64,000 nucleotides of DNA from an uncultured Microcaldota archaeon (GTDB lineage Archaea > Micrarchaeota > Micrarchaeia > Burarchaeales > Fermentimicrarchaeaceae). The translations under genes were made by a program, and so were the position numbers. The stretch spans positions 186,001-250,000 of the forward strand of contig CAISET010000002.1 of NCBI GenBank assembly GCA_903884505.1, given 5' to 3'. The notes under the pieces were generated by a model. That model was not told where the DNA came from. It worked only from the letters and a program-made list of their open reading frames with translations, and ran no database searches. Below are positions 3,658 to 56,653 of this stretch, in pieces. The stretch's first letter is position 1, and each line of letters starts with the position of its first letter.

Positions 3658-3708
3658 GCTAAAAGTTTTCCCGCAATGCTTTAAATCTAGAACGCCCAAT
3701 CCACTTCC

Positions 3709-4779
3709 ATGCGCCTGCAAACCGCGTTCATACTCCTCCTGCTGGCATCCATATTCGCCTACGCAGACCCGATGCCGCCAGTCCTTCCGGAGAATTCAGT
3801 CAGCTACGATTTCATCGCATATGAGTCATCGCAGGGAGCCCCAATCTCAAACGCAGTCATCCTGCTGAAATCATCCAGCGGCGATTTTCTCGCAGTCACG
3901 GATGAGGCGGGCGCATTCTCAGCAAGCCTTCCTTCAGCGATTTCAACTGTTGACATAGGCGCTGACTACGACTCAACCCCCGGCTATGATCTCATGGCTT
4001 CCAATATCCGCCTCTCCAATGCTTCAGCCCAGCGCGTTAGCTTCATCCCGGCAGGAACTATCTCAGGCAGCATCAGGGACGCAAATGGCGTTCCGGTTCC
4101 TGGGGCCCTGGTCTCCATAGCATGCCAAGGCTACTCGGAATCCACCTCATCCGATTCCGCTGGCATTTTCGGGTTCGACTTTGCGCCTGCCGGGGATTGC
4201 GAAGTCTCATCCCAGCCAGTGGGCAGAACCGCAGCAATCCGCGTAATCCAGGGCCAAATTTCATCCATTGAGCTCACGCCGCCCATTCCAGCACCACCTG
4301 CAGCAACGCCTGCCCCGCAGCAGAGCAGCACATGGCTGGTAATAGGCGCATTGTTCGCGGGCATCATAGTTGCGGTAATCATCATAATCGGACTCGTCCT
4401 CGCCGCATTCTGGCTCCTCCGCAATTCCATGGGCCAGATGGAAGAAACCGCGGCAAAAGAGGTGGAGGAACTGCCGTTCGTCCCCGCAGAAAAGCCGAGG
4501 CCCGCAGCACGGGCCCACGCCGCTCCGGCGGCAACGGAACCAACGCCAGGCCAGCTCGACATAATGCAGACCCTTTCAAAGCGCGAGTACGACATTACAA
4601 GCCTGCTGATTAAGAGCGGCGGGAGGATGCGCGCATCCAAGATACGCTACTCCCTATTAATCCCGAAGACCTCCTTCTTCCGCATCCTAAATTCCCTTCA
4701 GGCAAAGATGATAATAGAGAAAGAAAAATACGAAAATAGCCCTGAAATCCGGCTTACCAGTTGGTTCATGTCCAAATAG
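3709..4779 (+). CDS. Membrane protein: signal peptide, carboxypeptidase-regulatory-like domain, TM helix, cytoplasmic winged-helix domain
   Basis: GTISGSIRDANGVPVPGALVSIACQG; TM LVIGALFAGIIVAVIIIIGLVLAAFWLL; C-term LDIMQTLSKREYDITSLLIKSGGRMRASKIRYSLLIPKTSFFRILNSLQAKMIIEKEK. Confidence 0.75.
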   Translation: MRLQTAFILLLLASIFAYADPMPPVLPENSVSYDFIAYESSQGAPISNAVILLKSSSGDFLAVTDEAGAFSASLPSAISTVDIGADYDSTPGYDLMASNIRLSNASAQRVSFIPAGTISGSIRDANGVPVPGALVSIACQGYSESTSSDSAGIFGFDFAPAGDCEVSSQPVGRTAAIRVIQGQISSIELTPPIPAPPAATPAPQQSSTWLVIGALFAGIIVAVIIIIGLVLAAFWLLRNSMGQMEETAAKEVEELPFVPAEKPRPAARAHAAPAATEPTPGQLDIMQTLSKREYDITSLLIKSGGRMRASKIRYSLLIPKTSFFRILNSLQAKMIIEKEKYENSPEIRLTSWFMSK

Positions 4780-4840
4780 CCAATTGGAACGATTTTCTTC
4801 CGATTTAAGCCAAACCAAGCCAACTGGAACGTTTTCTTCC
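4778..4840 (+). repeat. Two imperfect direct repeats AGCCAAYTGGAACGWTTTTCTTCC (operator-like)
   Basis: AGCCAATTGGAACGATTTTCTTCC at 4778-4801 and AGCCAACTGGAACGTTTTCTTCC at 4818-4840, directly upstream of a TATA-like element. Confidence 0.6.
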
Positions 4841-4856
4841 CACTTTTCCCACCCAA

Positions 4857-4866
4857 ACTATAAGTA
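4857..4866 (+). promoter_or_regulatory. Archaeal TATA-like element ACTATAAGTA
   Basis: ACCCAAACTATAAGTAGGAG in the 570-bp gap upstream of the putative S-layer gene. Confidence 0.5.
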
Positions 4867-4884
4867 GGAGTTTCGGCACAATAT

Positions 4885-5348
4885 AGCTGGAAGTGCGCAA
4901 AGCACAGGGCTTCTGCGCATGAAATAAATTGTCTGGAACGTGTGCGCGAGCAACATGCGCAAAGCGCATGTTTGGAAATGAACGCACAAACCAGCCAGGC
5001 AAAAACCGCAACAATCATGTGCAGGCAAACAAAATCTGAGCATGCAAGCAGACAGCAAAAAACACACAACAAGCATGCGCAGGCAAACAGCAAAAAATGC
5101 GCAACCAGGCAAGCATGCCTGGGATGAACGCACGAAACAAAAACATTTGCGCGAACAGGCATGCAAACTTTGCGCAAGAACTTGCAGCCAAAAAACCGCA
5201 AGCAAAAGACTTGCACAAAAAATGTGCGCGGCCCTGTGATAAAAGCCGCAAGCGCAAACCGCGCATGGCTGCACATAATCGTGGTCCCGGAATGCGAGTG
5301 CAAAGCCCCCGGGTCCGCGCAATCGCGCAGTAATAGGATATTAGAAAC
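4885..5348 (+). ncRNA. Candidate structured leader or independent ncRNA (start estimated from TATA spacing)
   Basis: T-depleted, with hairpins AACATGCGC-AAA-GCGCATGTT (4952-4972), CCAGGCA-AGCA-TGCCTGG (5105-5122), GCACA-AAAAA-TGTGC (5213-5227) and recurring GCAGGCAAAC / CAGCAAAAAA motifs; no credible CDS. Confidence 0.4.
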
Positions 5349-8300
5349 GTGGTGGTGAAAATGGCAGGAAAAAATGCAGTCGTATGTCTCGTAGCCCTGG
5401 TAGCATTAGCCGGGCTCGTTTTCGCTACAAGCGACGGCTCGCCGCTTCAGTTCTCGCAGGCCGTGAAGAAGTTCACCGCCAGCGACTTCCCTACGCTAGC
5501 GACCGGCGCCATCACGGACACTTATGCGAACGTCGCCTACACCGAGGAGCAGTCTCTTTGGGTCAGGGCGCTAACGAAGTACGATAGCAATGTAAAGCGT
5601 GTTATCAGCAATAATGCCGACCTCGCCTACCAGCTGAAGTTCACCCAAGACCAGTATGGCATTCCGGTCGCAACCTGCAATCCGAGCAACGGCGCTATCC
5701 GCGGGGACGACCCGCTTTATGATTCGGCCAGCTGCTCCGAATCCGACAGGACCGACAGGCACCGCGTCCAGATAAAGTTCCTGAGCGGTCTGCTTGACAA
5801 CTATATAATCTCGGAGATGAGCCCGCCGTTTTCGACTGTGACGACCGCGAATGATGACAGCAGCGGCATGGCAACCGGAGGCTCGGTGCAGCTGGCTAAG
5901 GAGTCGGCATACGGTGTCGTCCATGTTAACGAGAGCCTTTCAACCGGCTCCTACTATGTGGAGCTAGCAGACATTACGGTTCCGACTACGACAATCCCGG
6001 ACGGCCTGGCTTCAATCCAGATATACGATATGAGCAACAACCTGCTAAAAGAGGACCACGTCGCAGAAGGTCAGACCTATGTCTGGACCGCGCCAGACGG
6101 CTCAAAGGTTTACGTCCATGTATACAAAAACAATCCAGGCATCTATCCGATCGCCAGGTGGTCTGAGATGGCAATCTTCTCCAAAGTCTTCAATCTTATA
6201 GACGGGCAATCCGTTTCGGATGACTGCTCGACTTGGAAGGTCTCGCTGGCATGGAAGAACAAAGACCCATCTAAGAATTCGAAGTACGTAGACTCGCTCA
6301 GGCAAATCATCCTTAGGAGCGAGGGCAACAACCAGAACACGAACATGGTCGACGGAGACACGCTGAACATAATCTGCAGCCCGGTCGTTTGGCAGCTCCA
6401 GTACAACGGCCTGACGTGCAGTGACCCAGGCGACTACGATGCACTCGGGTTTAGCATCGTGCAAAGAAGCTTCCATCTGAGCAAGAGCCCGGGCGTTTCG
6501 GACTGCGCCGGCAACACCAGGCTGTTTAACGCCACCGTGCTGCGCGTAACGAGCGGACTGAGCCAGCCATTTACCCTAACAGGCCCGCAGAGCGACCAGG
6601 TCTCGACCTTCTATGTGAATCTCGGAAGCAACCTCCTCAACACATCCTACGGAGGCAGCATCAACGTGGGCGGCGCACAGTCAGTGGCCCTAACGCCAAT
6701 CGGCACATGGGGCTCGCAGACAAAGTTCACAGTTGTTGGCCTCGACCAGAACGGCGACCTTGTCTACAGCACTGAAACGGCATCAACAACCGGCTCCGAC
6801 CCGGTGATTCTACTTCCGTCAGAACAGGGCAAGAGCTTCGCATCCGTCACTTCGCTCACTGCAACCGGCGGAACGGGCGGGACGAATTTCATCCTGAACT
6901 GGAGCGGCGGCACCAATAGGATGAGAATAGGTGCGTACAATGATGCCGGCGAGGTCATCTGGGTGCAGATGGGCCAGGCGGACTGTGACTTCCGCATGCA
7001 GCCCACCGGCATAGAGTATGACTCCGGTGACGGCTATGGGCAGCCGTTCGGTTTCGGCTCAGGTGCAGCCGGCTCCAGCCTCGGCTGGTGCAGCGCGGGT
7101 GCGGGCTGCCAGACCGGCAACCATAACGGCGTGCAGAATGGACGGCAGCTCGCCCTCCGGGAGAGCGCAGACAACGACCTCGCCCACTACGACTACCTGA
7201 GGCTTGGCATTAGCGAGACTGACGCTGCGAACCCGTCCTACCAATTCACAAATCCCAATTCAATAAGCTACGCCGACACGGGCGTGGGCCCGGGCCAATA
7301 CGACGGCCAGCAAACAACGGGGTTCATAACCGAGAGAGGCACCAAATTCACCTCAATCTCTACGACGTCTGCTACTCTGAAATCAGCAAAAAAAGTCTGC
7401 GAAGCGCAGTACTTCGTCAAGACCTCCGGGACGCAGATAAATGAGCCGGTGCAGGTCGGCCCGCTCGGGGAAGGCGAGTCAAGCGCAGGCCTTACCGGCG
7501 GCACCGCCATACAGGTGACCCAAATCGCCGAGGACGTTGGCACCTGTACAGCCTGCGCAGGAGGGGCCTTTGGGACATGTGCAATCAGCAACGAGAAGGT
7601 ATGGCTCAACGTCCAAGAATCCGGGTCTGCGCCCTTCTCCGTAGGCCCGCTTGCCGAGGGCGAAAGCACTGTAGGCCTTCCGGACGGCGTAGTAATAAAA
7701 GTCACGCAAATCAGCGAGGACGTCGGCACCTGCACCGCTTCAGGCAATTGCGGCGAAGGGGGCAGTGCAGGAACATGCGCAATCACCAACGAGAAGGTGT
7801 GGCTGAACGTCACCCTGCCCGGGCAGTTCCCGGGCGCAGTCGAGTTCAGGACCCTTATCAACGATTGGGTTGACCGAAAGCTCGAGAACAGGGACCAGGC
7901 GGGCTCGGTGGATATATACCCATGGTCGTACAGCCCGTATCCTACCCCGACTCCGACACCACGCCCGTCACCAACGCCAACCCCCACACCAACACCACGT
8001 CCCTCACCAACGGCAACGCCCACGGTGACGCCCTTGCCAACAACCCCACCCATCGCGAACGAATTCGCGATCGGCAGCTATATCCACCTGCTTTCCGGTG
8101 ACATCAACGGGCAGAGTGTCCAGATGGGAATACACGTTGCACCTGGCCAGCATCTTTCCGGGTCCTTCACAGTGGATGTGCAGAACAACGCCGGTGGAAA
8201 CGCCGTTTTCCTCACTGAGGCTACCCCGAACTGGGGCAACCCCGCGACTTCCTATTGGCAGCTGAACGGTCCTGACCAAGGCGTCAATACCGTGACCGTG

Positions 8301-9182
8301 GGGCTGGACGCGCCGCAAGAGGAAGGAACATACTACATCATAGTTGTTGGCGGCTGGGAGCTCGGAAGCGGAAGGGTCGCCTCAGGCACCAACTGGGACT
8401 ATGGCGAGAACGTGTGGGGAGACGGGAACGACATCGCAGCCTGGAGCCAGAGCCAAATAGACACGGCGCTGTCGAGCAGCCTCGTGCTCTCGCCGAAGCT
8501 CGAGAAGACTGGATACTTCTGGCATTATTATCCGGCGACGGCGGTGAAGGTGGTTGTAGAAACGAATTCCGAGCCGACTCCAACTCCGACACCAGGGCCA
8601 ACGTCTACCCCCTACCCGACCGTGACCCCGACCCCGGAATACCCGCCAACGCCCCCACAGCCGGAGATAAGGATGTCCGTCCAGTTGAACCGGGGCTGGA
8701 ACCTCATACCATACCTCTCCGGGATTGTGCCGCAGTCAAGCTGCGGGTACATACGGCAGGCGTGGATATACTCGCCAACTGAGAGGAGGTTCATCTCCGC
8801 GAACACAGGAACTCTCGTCCCATCCTCATCACAGGACGAGGCAGCCTACTCAGCCGCTTACGGGATATTCTCATCACCAAGCAATGCAGCCGCATTTGGC
8901 GGGATGTGGGCGTTCTCCCTGCGCCCATGTGCAGTCACCTACGTCCTTGCGAACCAGACTTCGCCAAGCGCCCCAGCGTCAGCAGGCTGGAACTTCATAA
9001 CCGTGCTTCCAGGGCAGGGAGGGAGCACGCTGCAGGTGCTGGAAGGGACCTGCGCGGCCTCCAAAGCTTATCTCTGGGACGCGCAGAGTCAGAAGTGGAA
9101 CGTGCTGGCTAATTCAGCAACGCTTAATGAAGGAAGCGTCGTAGCGGTAAAGCTGGCCGGAAGCTGCCAGTGGGGAGGATAG
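5349..9182 (+). CDS. Very large secreted surface protein (putative S-layer-type), duplicated domain, Thr-Pro linkers, C-terminal GWNLIPY domain
   Basis: Signal peptide MAGKNAVVCLVALVALAGLVFA (ATG 5361 is the likelier start); PTPTPTPRPSPTPTP linkers; 1277 aa. Confidence 0.8.
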   Translation: MVVKMAGKNAVVCLVALVALAGLVFATSDGSPLQFSQAVKKFTASDFPTLATGAITDTYANVAYTEEQSLWVRALTKYDSNVKRVISNNADLAYQLKFTQDQYGIPVATCNPSNGAIRGDDPLYDSASCSESDRTDRHRVQIKFLSGLLDNYIISEMSPPFSTVTTANDDSSGMATGGSVQLAKESAYGVVHVNESLSTGSYYVELADITVPTTTIPDGLASIQIYDMSNNLLKEDHVAEGQTYVWTAPDGSKVYVHVYKNNPGIYPIARWSEMAIFSKVFNLIDGQSVSDDCSTWKVSLAWKNKDPSKNSKYVDSLRQIILRSEGNNQNTNMVDGDTLNIICSPVVWQLQYNGLTCSDPGDYDALGFSIVQRSFHLSKSPGVSDCAGNTRLFNATVLRVTSGLSQPFTLTGPQSDQVSTFYVNLGSNLLNTSYGGSINVGGAQSVALTPIGTWGSQTKFTVVGLDQNGDLVYSTETASTTGSDPVILLPSEQGKSFASVTSLTATGGTGGTNFILNWSGGTNRMRIGAYNDAGEVIWVQMGQADCDFRMQPTGIEYDSGDGYGQPFGFGSGAAGSSLGWCSAGAGCQTGNHNGVQNGRQLALRESADNDLAHYDYLRLGISETDAANPSYQFTNPNSISYADTGVGPGQYDGQQTTGFITERGTKFTSISTTSATLKSAKKVCEAQYFVKTSGTQINEPVQVGPLGEGESSAGLTGGTAIQVTQIAEDVGTCTACAGGAFGTCAISNEKVWLNVQESGSAPFSVGPLAEGESTVGLPDGVVIKVTQISEDVGTCTASGNCGEGGSAGTCAITNEKVWLNVTLPGQFPGAVEFRTLINDWVDRKLENRDQAGSVDIYPWSYSPYPTPTPTPRPSPTPTPTPTPRPSPTATPTVTPLPTTPPIANEFAIGSYIHLLSGDINGQSVQMGIHVAPGQHLSGSFTVDVQNNAGGNAVFLTEATPNWGNPATSYWQLNGPDQGVNTVTVGLDAPQEEGTYYIIVVGGWELGSGRVASGTNWDYGENVWGDGNDIAAWSQSQIDTALSSSLVLSPKLEKTGYFWHYYPATAVKVVVETNSEPTPTPTPGPTSTPYPTVTPTPEYPPTPPQPEIRMSVQLNRGWNLIPYLSGIVPQSSCGYIRQAWIYSPTERRFISANTGTLVPSSSQDEAAYSAAYGIFSSPSNAAAFGGMWAFSLRPCAVTYVLANQTSPSAPASAGWNFITVLPGQGGSTLQVLEGTCAASKAYLWDAQSQKWNVLANSATLNEGSVVAVKLAGSCQWGG

Positions 9183-13212: not shown

Positions 13213-16200
13213 TTGGCATCTAACGGCAACTACCGCGACAGGGAAATCCGCGACGAGATGAAGGAGTCCTACCTGGGCTACGCGATGAGTGTAATCGTGG
13301 GCAGGGCCCTTCCCGACGTGAGGGACGGGCTGAAGCCGGTCCACAGGCGCGTGCTCCACACCATGAACGAATTGGGGAACGCGAGCGACAAGCCCTACAA
13401 GAAGAGCGCAAGGGTTGTCGGTGACTGCCTGGGCAAATACCACCCGCACGGCGATCTTGCGGTCTATGATACGATAGTTAGGATGGCGCAGGACTTCTCG
13501 CTCCGCTACCCACTCGTAGACGGGCAAGGAAATTTTGGTTCTGTCGACGGGGATTCTGCAGCGGCCATGAGGTACTGCGTAACCGGCGATTCACTTGTAA
13601 TAACTGAACTAGGCATGGAAGCCATAGGCAGTCTTTCAGCCAGTGAAGATATCAGCCGGCACGTCTTATCCGCGGGCAATAAGGTAAATTCCGCAAGCAA
13701 GTGGTTCGATTCCGGCGAACACCCTACCAAGACCGTGAGAACACATAGGGGCTTTGAGCTGACTGGTACGCCAAACCACCCAGTGCTCACCCTGCAGAAG
13801 GGTTCAGGCGGCTGTCCCAGGCTCAAATGGAAGCTGCTCTCAGAATTGAAGGCTGGAGAATATGCGGTCATAAGCCGCGCTCCGCTGCTTTTCCCGGAAA
13901 CCGAGCCGTCGTTGCTGGAATACCATCCACAGCTAAGCGGCAGAACGAAGCCGCATCACCTGCCTTTGTCGATGAGTCCGGAACTGGCATTCATCCTAGG
14001 GGCTCTTGTCGCTGAGGGTAGCATATCGAAAGAACAGATAGGCTTCTGCAATAGTGACGCCGAGTTTTTGGAAGAATTCAAGCGCTGTTTTAAAGAAGTC
14101 TTTCCGGACTGCCGCCTCCACGAGTATGCGCGCTTGCCAGTAGGCTTCACGAGAAAGCCATACATCTCGCTGGAAATCCATGCTAGGCACGTCATAATGT
14201 TTTTGCATAACGTCGGACTTGCTCCGGTAAGAGCCGCGCAAAAAGACATACCGGAAACAGTGCTTGCTTCTACAAAAAATAGCCTCGCCGCATTCGTAAG
14301 AGGCTATGCGGAAGGGGACGGCAGCGTTTACAGGTCAGGGGCACCGGAGATTGCCTTCGTCTCTGCCAGCGCCAGGCTGATGAAGAGGTTCCTGCCGCTG
14401 CTGCTGAGGTTCGGGATCGATTCTTCCTACCGCTGGCAGCCATCAAAACGGATATATAAGCTGCTAATCCGGGGCGTCGGAAATCTCAGCCTGTTCAAAA
14501 ACCAAATAGGCTTTGCAACAATAAGAAAAAGCACAAAACTGGGCGAGGTCTGTGCCCTTAACAATAACCAGCGCATAATGTCCAAGACTGATTTTGTGCC
14601 GTACCTGGCAGACCACATTCGGAACAATGGCTACGCGGCAAAGCCGAAAGAGTGGCTGAGAAGGCACAACATCGACAGGCTTCCGAAGGTGAAGGCATAC
14701 TGGAAAATAATGGCAGGACTGTTGAACGATGCGGACAGGGCCCTCTATGAGGATTTGCTCAGGAATAACTACCTCTTCGACAAAGTTATGGCGGTCGAAG
14801 ACTCAGGCAGGCAACGCGTGTATTCCATACGAGTTGACAGCGCCTGCCACTCATTCGTTTCGAACGGATTCATAAGCCACAATACGGAAGTGCGCATGGC
14901 AAAGACAGCGGAGGAAATGCTCGAGGACATCGACAAGGAGACGGTTGATTTCACCCCCAATTTCGACGGCTCGCTCAAGGAGCCCACCCTGCTTCCTGCT
15001 CGCCTTCCCAACCTCCTGATTAACGGCTCGAGCGGAATCGCGGTCGGAATGGCAACCAACATGCCCCCGCACAACCTCTCAGAAGTCTGCGACGCGATTG
15101 CGCATTTCATCGACAACCCGAACTCCACTGTGCAGGACCTGATGATGTACGTCCAGGGGCCGGACTTCCCGACTGCGGGGATAATCTGCGGGAAGAGTGG
15201 CATAACGCAGGCCTACGCCATGGGGAAAGGCGCGCTGAAAGTCCGTGCGAAGGCCGAGATTAAGGACGCGAAGGACCGCAAGCGCATAATCGTCACGGAG
15301 CTTCCCTACATGGTGAACAAGGCGAAGCTCGTCGAGCAGATGGCCGACCTCGTGAACGCGAAGAAGCTGGAGGGCATCTCCGACCTGCGCGACGAGTCGG
15401 ACCGCGAGGGAATAAGGGTCGTCATAGAGCTGAAGCGCGACGCGAATGCCGAGGTCGTGCTGAACCAGCTCTACGAGCACACCACGATGCAGACAACTTT
15501 CGGAGTGATAAACCTCGCCCTCGTTGACGGGCAGCCGCGCGTGCTCACGCTCCGCGATTTGGTGGAGCAGTTCGTGAAGCACAGGCAGGAGATAATAACG
15601 CGCAGGAGCAGGTTCGAGCTGCGGCAGGCCGAGGACAGGGCGCACCTCATCGAGGGGCTCAAGGTCGCGGTCGGGAACATAGACGCGGTCGTGCAGCTCG
15701 TGAAGAAATCCGAGGACCCGCAGGCGGCGAAGCAGGGCCTCATGTCAAGGTTCAATCTTTCGGAAAAGCAGGCGCAGGCAATACTCGAGATGCGGCTGCA
15801 GAGGCTCACCGGGCTCGAGCGGGGAAAGCTCGAGGCCGAGCATAAGGAACTCCTCGAGAAGATTACGTTCCTGAAGAATCTTCTTTCGGATGTCGCCCTC
15901 ATACTGAAGGTGGTGAAGGACGAGACGCTGCGCATCAAGCAGAAATACGGCGATGCGCGCAGGACGCAGATTTCCGAGGAGGTCGGCGAGATACTCGTCG
16001 AGGACCTCATACCCCACGAGAAGGTCGTGGTCACCATCACTAACAGCGGCTACATAAAGAGGATGCCCCTCGCGGAATACGAGATTCAGAAGCGCGGCGG
16101 GAGGGGAATAATCGGGGTCGAGGCCAAGGAGGAGGACTTCGCAACGGACATGCTCATCGCCGACACGCACGACTACCTCCTGTTCTTCACGGATAAGGGC

Positions 16201-17052
16201 CGCGTGCACTGGCTGAAGGTCTACCGCGTGCCGGAGGCAGGAAGATATGCCGCAGGGAAAGCCATCGTAAACCTTCTCGAGATACAGGAAGAGAAGGTGC
16301 GCGCCATCATACCCGTTTCAGAATTCGGCGAGAAGGACTACCTGATAATCGCGACGAAAAACGGCATCGTGAAGAAGACCTCCCTTGCCGAGTACTCGAA
16401 CCCGAGGCGCGGCGGGATAATCGCGGTCACGCTGCGCGAGGACGATGACCTCATAGACGTGAAGAGGACGACGGGCAACCAGGACGTGATACTCGCATCG
16501 CGCGAGGGAATGGCCATCCGCTTCAATGAGAATGACGCGCGCTCAATCGGCAGGACGGGGATGGGCGTAATCGGGATGAGGCTGCGCGACAAGGACGAAG
16601 TCGTCGGAATGGCAATCGCGGAGCCGGGCGAGACGCTCCTGACAATATGCGAGAACGGCCATGGGAAGAGGACTTCGATGGAGGAATACCGGCAGCAGTC
16701 GCGCGGAGGGCTCGGCGTAATCAACATCCAGGTGACCGAGCGCAACGGCAAGACCGTGGACGTCCGCTCGGTGAAGGACGATGACGAGCTGATGATAGTA
16801 AACTCCAGTGGCGTGATAATCCGCATACCCGTGCACGGCATCTCGGCGATAGGGAGGAACACGCAGGGGGTAAGGCTCATGAAGCTCGAGAAGGGGCAGA
16901 AGGTCGTCGCAGTCGCGCGGATTGCGCACGAGGCCCAGCCTCCGGCGCAGCCGCCAGGGCACCCGCTAGAGTCTATACCTATGATAAGCTCTGGCCATGA
17001 GCGAGAGCAGCCCAAGAACAAGCCGAACGTAGGGGACATCGAAATACTGTAA
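13213..17052 (+). CDS. gyrA: DNA gyrase subunit A, interrupted by an intein
   Basis: [37 protein letters not shown]...[10 protein letters not shown] | intein | [13 protein letters not shown]; GyrA box QKRGGRG; TTG start. Confidence 0.96.
13576..14883 (+). mobile_element. GyrA intein (436 aa) with LAGLIDADG endonuclease domain
   Basis: Starts [20 protein letters not shown] after AMRY, ends VSNGFISHN before [13 protein letters not shown] and [21 protein letters not shown]-type motifs. Confidence 0.93.
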
Positions 17053-43122: not shown

Positions 43123-43461
43123 ATGGTCACGAAACAAAGGAAGCACATTCCTGCAGACGAGCCGAGGTCCAGTCCTATCCAACATCCAGTAGTGCCAGGC
43201 AGCATCCTAAGAAATATCGGCATTTCAAATACTCGTATACTGTCCAAAGAACGCGAACTGGACAGAAATTCCGGCATACCGAAAGGGGGCCTCGGTATCC
43301 GTGACCTGCAAAATCCTCCAGAAAAAAAGAGGGCAAGCGTATCCAGGGAATTCGGCAAGGATGTATTAACGAACGTGGGCAGCCCGATTACGGGCGAGGA
43401 CCTGCGGCGTGCCGAGCAAGAGGCCCACAAAGATAAAAAGGGAAAAGAAAAACGGGGATAA
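43123..43461 (+). CDS. Small basic hypothetical protein
   Basis: Complete ORF in a coding gap; weak. Confidence 0.35.
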   Translation: MVTKQRKHIPADEPRSSPIQHPVVPGSILRNIGISNTRILSKERELDRNSGIPKGGLGIRDLQNPPEKKRASVSREFGKDVLTNVGSPITGEDLRRAEQEAHKDKKGKEKRG

Positions 43462-56344: not shown

Positions 56345-56653
56345 GTGCTTCCGGAAGAAGCAAGGAGCGAGCTCGGGCTGGAAGAGTTCGTAGTCTTCGA
56401 AGTGCGAGGCAGCGAAATCATAATCAAAAAAGCGAACGGCGAGCGGAAGCAGGCTAGGGCGATTTCGAGGAATTTGTTCGAGGTAGTTGATGATTTGGAT
56501 GGCCTCCGTAGTGTAGTGGATTGCACGGCAGCTTGTGGAGCAACCCTTTTGCCTGCGGGCAAAAGCGTTGACGGAAAGCCGCAAAAAGCTGCAGGACCGG
56601 GTTCAATTCCCGGCGAAGGCCCTTTCCCGAAAGGGAGGAGGTTTTGGAAATGA
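56345..56653 (+). CDS. SpoVT/AbrB-like DNA-binding ORF whose 3' end runs through a tRNA gene
   Basis: Frame reads ...RLDRKRRFVLPEEARSELGLEEFVVFEVRGSEIIIKKANGE; GTG start; no stop before the tRNA. Confidence 0.45.
   Translation: MLPEEARSELGLEEFVVFEVRGSEIIIKKANGERKQARAISRNLFEVVDDLDGLRSVVDCTAACGATLLPAGKSVDGKPQKAAGPGSIPGEGPFPKGRRFWK
56501..56621 (+). tRNA. tRNA-His (GTG) with a 48-nt intron at 37/38 (intron 56539-56586)
   Basis: G-1 (56501), GCCTCCG-TA-GTGT..GCAC-G-GCAGC-TT-GTG-G | intron | A-GCTGC-AGGA-CCGGGTTCAATTCCCGG-CGAAGGC-C73; BHB-like 4-bp TTGT/GCAA helix with GGA and AAA bulges. Confidence 0.87.
56618..56634 (+). terminator. Hairpin immediately after tRNA-His (processing or termination)
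   Basis: CCCTTT-CCCG-AAAGGG directly following the tRNA. Confidence 0.35.

Follow-up and report, generated by a model that had tools for sequence, protein, structure and literature searches.

What does the stretch at 4885-5360 of the window, as we call the whole 64,000-nucleotide piece of archaeal DNA analyzed here, represent between the genes that flank it? The initial annotation had described it as a T-depleted, hairpin-rich leader or non-coding RNA upstream of a putative S-layer gene. We consider it fairly probable that it is a plus-strand 5' leader of the gene at 5361-9182, lineage-specific and built from repeated hairpin units.

We have compared its composition with a background of about 458 kb of stretches from the same genome, which served also for the repeat scans. 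Using the A-minus-T excess in 200-nt windows as a measure, it showed the strongest A-over-T skew among the gaps of at least 200 bp, with a maximum of 0.34 vs 0.22 in the runner-up gap, so the T-depleted, A-rich composition claimed before was borne out. On the plus strand the T fraction was 0.29 in the preceding 4780-4884 and 0.13 over 4885-5240; the region 4975-5225 had A 0.44 and T 0.10, and the full leader A 0.361 and T 0.134. Two other skewed gaps of the window (43088 and 53843) proved to be coding sequences overlooked by a simple gene caller. A coding sequence on either strand, which the initial annotation had set against its own reading, was also rejected here, the longest open frame (154 codons) being no longer than expected by chance in T-poor sequence (mean 133, P 0.33).

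The short motifs and stems listed in the initial annotation are indeed present at their positions, among them a perfect stem of 9 bp with a loop of 3 (4952-4972) and another of 7 bp with a loop of 4 (5105-5122). The two perfect stems of at least 7 bp are a modest excess over dinucleotide shuffles (0.41, P about 0.05), and the folding energy of the whole region gave z values of -3.2 for the plus and -4.5 for the minus strand. Recurrence, however, does not reside in the short motifs: single 6-mers were not over-represented in the leader region, and the true repeats are longer and diverged, internal direct repeats with spacings of 58, 35 and 50 that scored above all 150 shuffles.

The signals surrounding the leader were compared with those of G003, one syntenic relative among the matches listed (L056, minus strand), in which the gene order around the leader is conserved. 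The gene upstream (3709-4779) has a carboxypeptidase-regulatory-like domain and is preceded by a cobW-like gene on the other strand; downstream of 5361-9182 are a DUF4870 gene and gyrB. The organism is a DPANN archaeon, as a relative from its family is listed as Candidatus ainarchaeum. The features are as follows:

4780..4846, plus strand: diverged pair of CCAAyTGGAACGwTTTTCTTCC copies with short T-tracts at the 3' end of the upstream gene (direct repeat D4, 27 nt, 74%)
4857..4866, plus strand: TATA-like box ACTATAAGTA, identified by sequence, which aligns with AAATATAATAG at the G003 locus
4885..5360, plus strand: T-poor stretch predicted to be the 5' leader of the gene at 5361-9182, from its composition and its homology to the 95-nt G003 leader
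5351..5357, plus strand: Shine-Dalgarno-like GGTGGTG, identified by sequence and matched in position by GAGGTG in G003
5361..9182, plus strand: chimeric surface-protein gene with an S-layer core, a Pro/Thr-rich linker and a C-terminal RGWNLIPY domain

The repeats at 4780-4846 are plausibly terminators of the upstream gene, and similar AACG-T-tract segments are also found in G003. The TATA-like element that had been proposed at 4857 was confirmed, and the promoter region is similar and alignable at both loci; the predicted transcription start lies near 4885. A sigma-70 promoter scan was applied too, with a model that is unsuited to archaea. The start codon is likely ATG 5361 rather than GTG 5349, because it follows GGTGGTG and the G003 gene starts alike (ATGGCAAGG after GAGGTG). 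The leader would then be long, as had been claimed, with about 476 nt instead of about 470.

The gene itself required a correction. Over 753 aa, 56% of the residues in the core of its product are identical to those of the S-layer protein encoded on contig C16 of the same genome (G000:C16), so that part of the S-layer assignment stands. On the other hand, the window protein has no match to the S-layer families TIGR01564 and PF05124 at their cut-offs and lacks the N-terminus that scores in them, while the C16 paralog reaches 35 bits vs a cut-off of 25 and 42.5 bits vs 23.9, respectively. Compared with the members of these families it also carries a different C-terminal domain, with 55% identity to that of the syntenic G003 protein and shared as well with its own neighbours; this domain is all that the G003 and window proteins have in common. 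The gene is S-layer-derived, yet it is not the S-layer gene of the genome, the true one being that of C16. The order of the core segments also differs, residues 798-859 of the window protein corresponding to the N-terminal 94-157 of the C16 protein, as would be seen in a permuted or rearranged copy.

The G003 leader has 95 nt, a T fraction of 0.116, a strong fold (z -4.7) and one hairpin unit. A global MAFFT alignment with the leader of the window masked the homology of the units, which was revealed by local alignment. We identified three of them:

4943..5003, plus strand: hairpin unit U1, with outer stem TGTGCG/CGCACA and inner 9-bp stem AACATGCGC-AAA-GCGCATGTT, then GGAAATGA
5099..5139, plus strand: hairpin unit U2, with inner stem CCAGGCA-AGCA-TGCCTGG, then GATGA (fold z -3.5)
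5149..5226, plus strand: hairpin unit U3, the most diverged copy, its inner stem lost

The local alignment scores against the G003 leader were 45 for U3, 44 for U1 and 41 for U2, in non-overlapping segments. Their sum, 130, was well above the shuffles (mean 77.5, maximum 104 in 400), and reversed and complemented controls fell far below it. The best of 3836 other windows of the own genome scored 43, and the four background alignments that we inspected were all within or overlapping predicted genes. The CCAGGCA/TGCCTGG stem of U2 is letter-identical to that of G003, while U1 has a different 9-bp stem at this place. Over the four unit copies (U1-U3 and that of G003) 75% of the cells were paired, vs at most 47.6% when the copies were slid, with no excess over shuffles. 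A family of repeats spread over the genome was discarded, there being no comparable copies of U1-U3 elsewhere in the 458 kb, and beyond G003 the leader itself had no strong match within the order. At the level of sequence these data show the homology to the G003 leader and the copy number of three against one. Since there is one unit in G003 and three diverged copies here, the leader was most likely enlarged by unit duplication; the copies would have been gained here by local duplication rather than lost in G003.

The main rival to the leader reading is a neutral spacer, in which local duplications enlarged untranslated DNA and the hairpins are by-products of a seed rich in GC palindromes, with nothing depending on them. 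The modest excess of stems over shuffles fits such an origin, as do the strong divergence of the copies, the absence of an inner stem in U3, the non-significant covariation among the copies and the lack of conservation beyond G003. Yet both genomes have remained T-poor despite the changed letters, the fold of the G003 unit is far better than that of its shuffles (z -4.7), and the letters of the 7-bp stem of U2 are the same in G003, so we regard the neutral spacer as possible but rather doubtful. The leader reading draws on synteny, the alignable promoter region, the T-poor folded leader of G003, the Shine-Dalgarno, the repeats above shuffles and the lack of a coding frame beyond chance. Against it count the better fold of the minus strand, the pair counts of the unit copies, within the range of shuffles, the single syntenic relative among the matches listed, and the fact that other structured leaders here are not generally U-poor.

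The better minus-strand fold (z -4.5) would rather suit an antisense RNA, which together with a stand-alone small RNA, the alternative offered in the initial annotation, we consider unlikely. RNA from the minus strand would contain several U5-U6 tracts and terminator-like sites, and PMC8716108 and PMC7515710 describe archaeal termination as dependent on U-tracts (U-tracts are said to drive it in PMC8716108); the plus direction is favored for this reason. The plus strand, in turn, has no T-run longer than 3 in the leader region, and a pattern scan of 4700-5400 detected no terminator-like site on it that could end a separate RNA ahead of the gene. The Rfam comparison that had been proposed gave no family either: with Rfam 15 the sole match in the whole window was a tRNA at 56502-56621, and at E values up to 10 nothing in 4700-5450 came near the gathering score. 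These results lend the stand-alone alternative no support.

Another reading takes the units as an array of protein-binding hairpins, kink-turn-like sites for L7Ae or a similar protein whose copies would strengthen the control of the mRNA. L7Ae control through leader kink-turns is known in archaea (PMC5539422, PMC6298567), and the resemblance lies in a leader hairpin with GA opposite GA, found in the G003 unit by a 4-nt bulge (TGCGCGC-GA-CCAGGCA / TGCCTGG-AAAT-GA-GCGCGCA). However, the bulge has four nucleotides and not three, the window units show the GA/GA pattern only in part (it is clear in one of the four units), and the gene is a different one. A strict pattern scan of the 458 kb also missed the window units, its eight matches including seven within predicted genes and none in the leader. 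We thus find this reading very unlikely.

The 5' leader with repeated hairpin units is then the best reading, on account of the G003 promoter, the Shine-Dalgarno and the homologous T-poor hairpin leader, and the structured leader first proposed stands in this form, although not as the leader of the S-layer gene. Its history and action could have been the following. The ancestor would be a short U-poor leader of about 95 nt with one two-stem hairpin, as in G003, and local duplication of the hairpin unit in this lineage would have multiplied it to three or more diverged copies. Transcription would begin near 4885 and run on into 5361, giving a series of hairpins linked by A-rich, U-poor segments as far as the Shine-Dalgarno. 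The missing U-tracts might let the RNA polymerase cross this long untranslated stretch without terminating. As to the function of the enlarged leader, we infer that it is most likely an effect in cis on the stability or the translation of this single mRNA. This leader suggests that leaders may grow by copying of hairpin units, here in a lineage-specific way.

We also extracted the leaders of S-layer homologs and saw in them interleaved complementary segments, which form an H-type pseudoknot: the helices P1 (GGGC../..GCCC) and P2 (GUCGCC../..GGCGAC) are interleaved and a GNTAA segment follows the 5' strand of P2. In the own genome it is located as follows:

G000:C16:70235-70345 (L039:10236-10346), minus strand in L039: pseudoknot leader of the true S-layer gene, which is directly downstream, its Shine-Dalgarno about 7 nt past the pseudoknot

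The pseudoknot loci are C16/L039, L024, L026, L040-L054 and L079-L128; it was not seen in the S-layer leaders of certain other families within the class (L025, L027, L029, L030, L034-L036). The computed best pseudoknot was present in 20 of 20 leaders, a set chosen for showing the complementary segments, scoring between 2.1 and 6.7 sd higher than dinucleotide shuffles; for each single leader 0-2 of 60 shuffles did as well, and in L051 and L053 the automatic search chose helices other than those assigned by eye. A covariance model made only of P2 and sequence (R1) matched 58 of 246 genomes of the class, and a second one (R2), built from 55 matches, was found in 70 of the phylum's 302 genomes and in all 16 of the order, always as one copy per genome except for two genomes with two each. 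C16 was the sole match of R1 in the own genome, and the window had none.

P2 pairs were formed in 97.1% of the cells in an alignment fitted to P2 (94.6% in an earlier MAFFT alignment of 16), and all seven pairs had changes on both sides; neither the pairing nor the covariation score was equalled by any of 500 shuffles. P1 lies outside the R1 model, and in 36 held-out matches, among which some relatives of training members are retained, its mean score was 9.14 vs 7.14 with swapped partners (sd 0.20, maximum 7.65). Anchoring P1 at GGG/CCC, with seven matches that lack the anchor excluded, the next pair was formed in 44 of 47, against a permutation mean of 24.9, the types including C-G (29), G-C (14) and U-A (1). 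P1 was less clear in a few matches, e.g., L097, L108 and L128. The geometry is also regular, with a TATA-like site at a median of 101 nt upstream of P2, a Shine-Dalgarno typically some 7-8 nt past P2 and the start codon at a median of 18 nt past it. An S-layer N-terminus was found downstream in 47 of 55 matches by an automatic test, and most of the remaining eight show a similar one by eye, the assignment being uncertain in L126 and L128. In L039, L040 and L102, the family of the window genome, the linker between the 5' strand of P2 and the 3' strand of P1 is enlarged to about 55-70 nt, with extra hairpins. By eye, an additional hairpin with varying stem letters appears upstream of the pseudoknot, past the TATA-like site, in, e.g., L044, L047 and L048.

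That the window leader is a degenerate copy of this pseudoknot, inherited with the S-layer core, is hardly credible: 5323-5354 (CGCGCAGTAATAGGATAT) weakly resembles the GTCGCCGGTAAT segment, at 6.2 bits with R2 used without filters (9.4 bits being the best in 3700-6000), but E is 0.6 in 2.3 kb, neither helix has a partner, there is no GNTAA segment, and default filters give no match in the window. A general avoidance of U by structured leaders was also discarded: the C16 S-layer leader has a T fraction of 0.25 and several S-layer leaders of relatives contain long U-runs, so we claim no such rule.

S-layer proteins usually rank with the most abundant proteins of such cells. The S-layer leader pseudoknot is of more importance than the window leader: both helices covary, it is tied to one gene across much of a DPANN class, and it has no Rfam match. 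We are nearly certain that it folds as described. Whether it acts as a regulatory switch is a more tentative matter, to which we give clearly less than even weight, and a doubtful extension would be that the switch gates translation in response to a ligand or to the S-layer protein, the window gene having escaped through an unrelated leader of amplified hairpin units. The pseudoknot is a testable candidate for post-transcriptional S-layer control in uncultured archaea.

The two leaders are alike in providing a Shine-Dalgarno ahead of a gene with an S-layer core; unlike that of the window, the class-wide one is pseudoknotted, nearly always single in its genome and not T-poor. In bacteria, the SLH motif is likewise a structured RNA preceding S-layer-related genes, found in Synergistaceae, Firmicutes and metagenomes and about 60% upstream of SLH-domain genes (PMC6429828). 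In contrast to it, the leader and the S-layer loci scanned here lack any Rfam match: seven S-layer loci gave none at gathering, and a second set of seven had no match exceeding it. The SLH motif was the only related report in literature searches outside subscription journals, and the S-layer pseudoknot is apparently undescribed.

Three other features of the window are worth recording. The frame 43123-43461 (plus strand) codes for 112 aa, is T-poor, has no family assigned and lies in a gap left empty by the gene caller. The GyrA frame at 13213-17052 (plus strand, 1279 aa) contains by eye an apparent in-frame intein-like insert, from near YCVTGDSLV to near FISHNT. Finally, the tRNA at 56502-56621 (plus strand) scored 43 bits in Rfam over 120 nt for a model of 71 positions and gave no match with ARAGORN, and therefore it is probably an intron-bearing tRNA gene.
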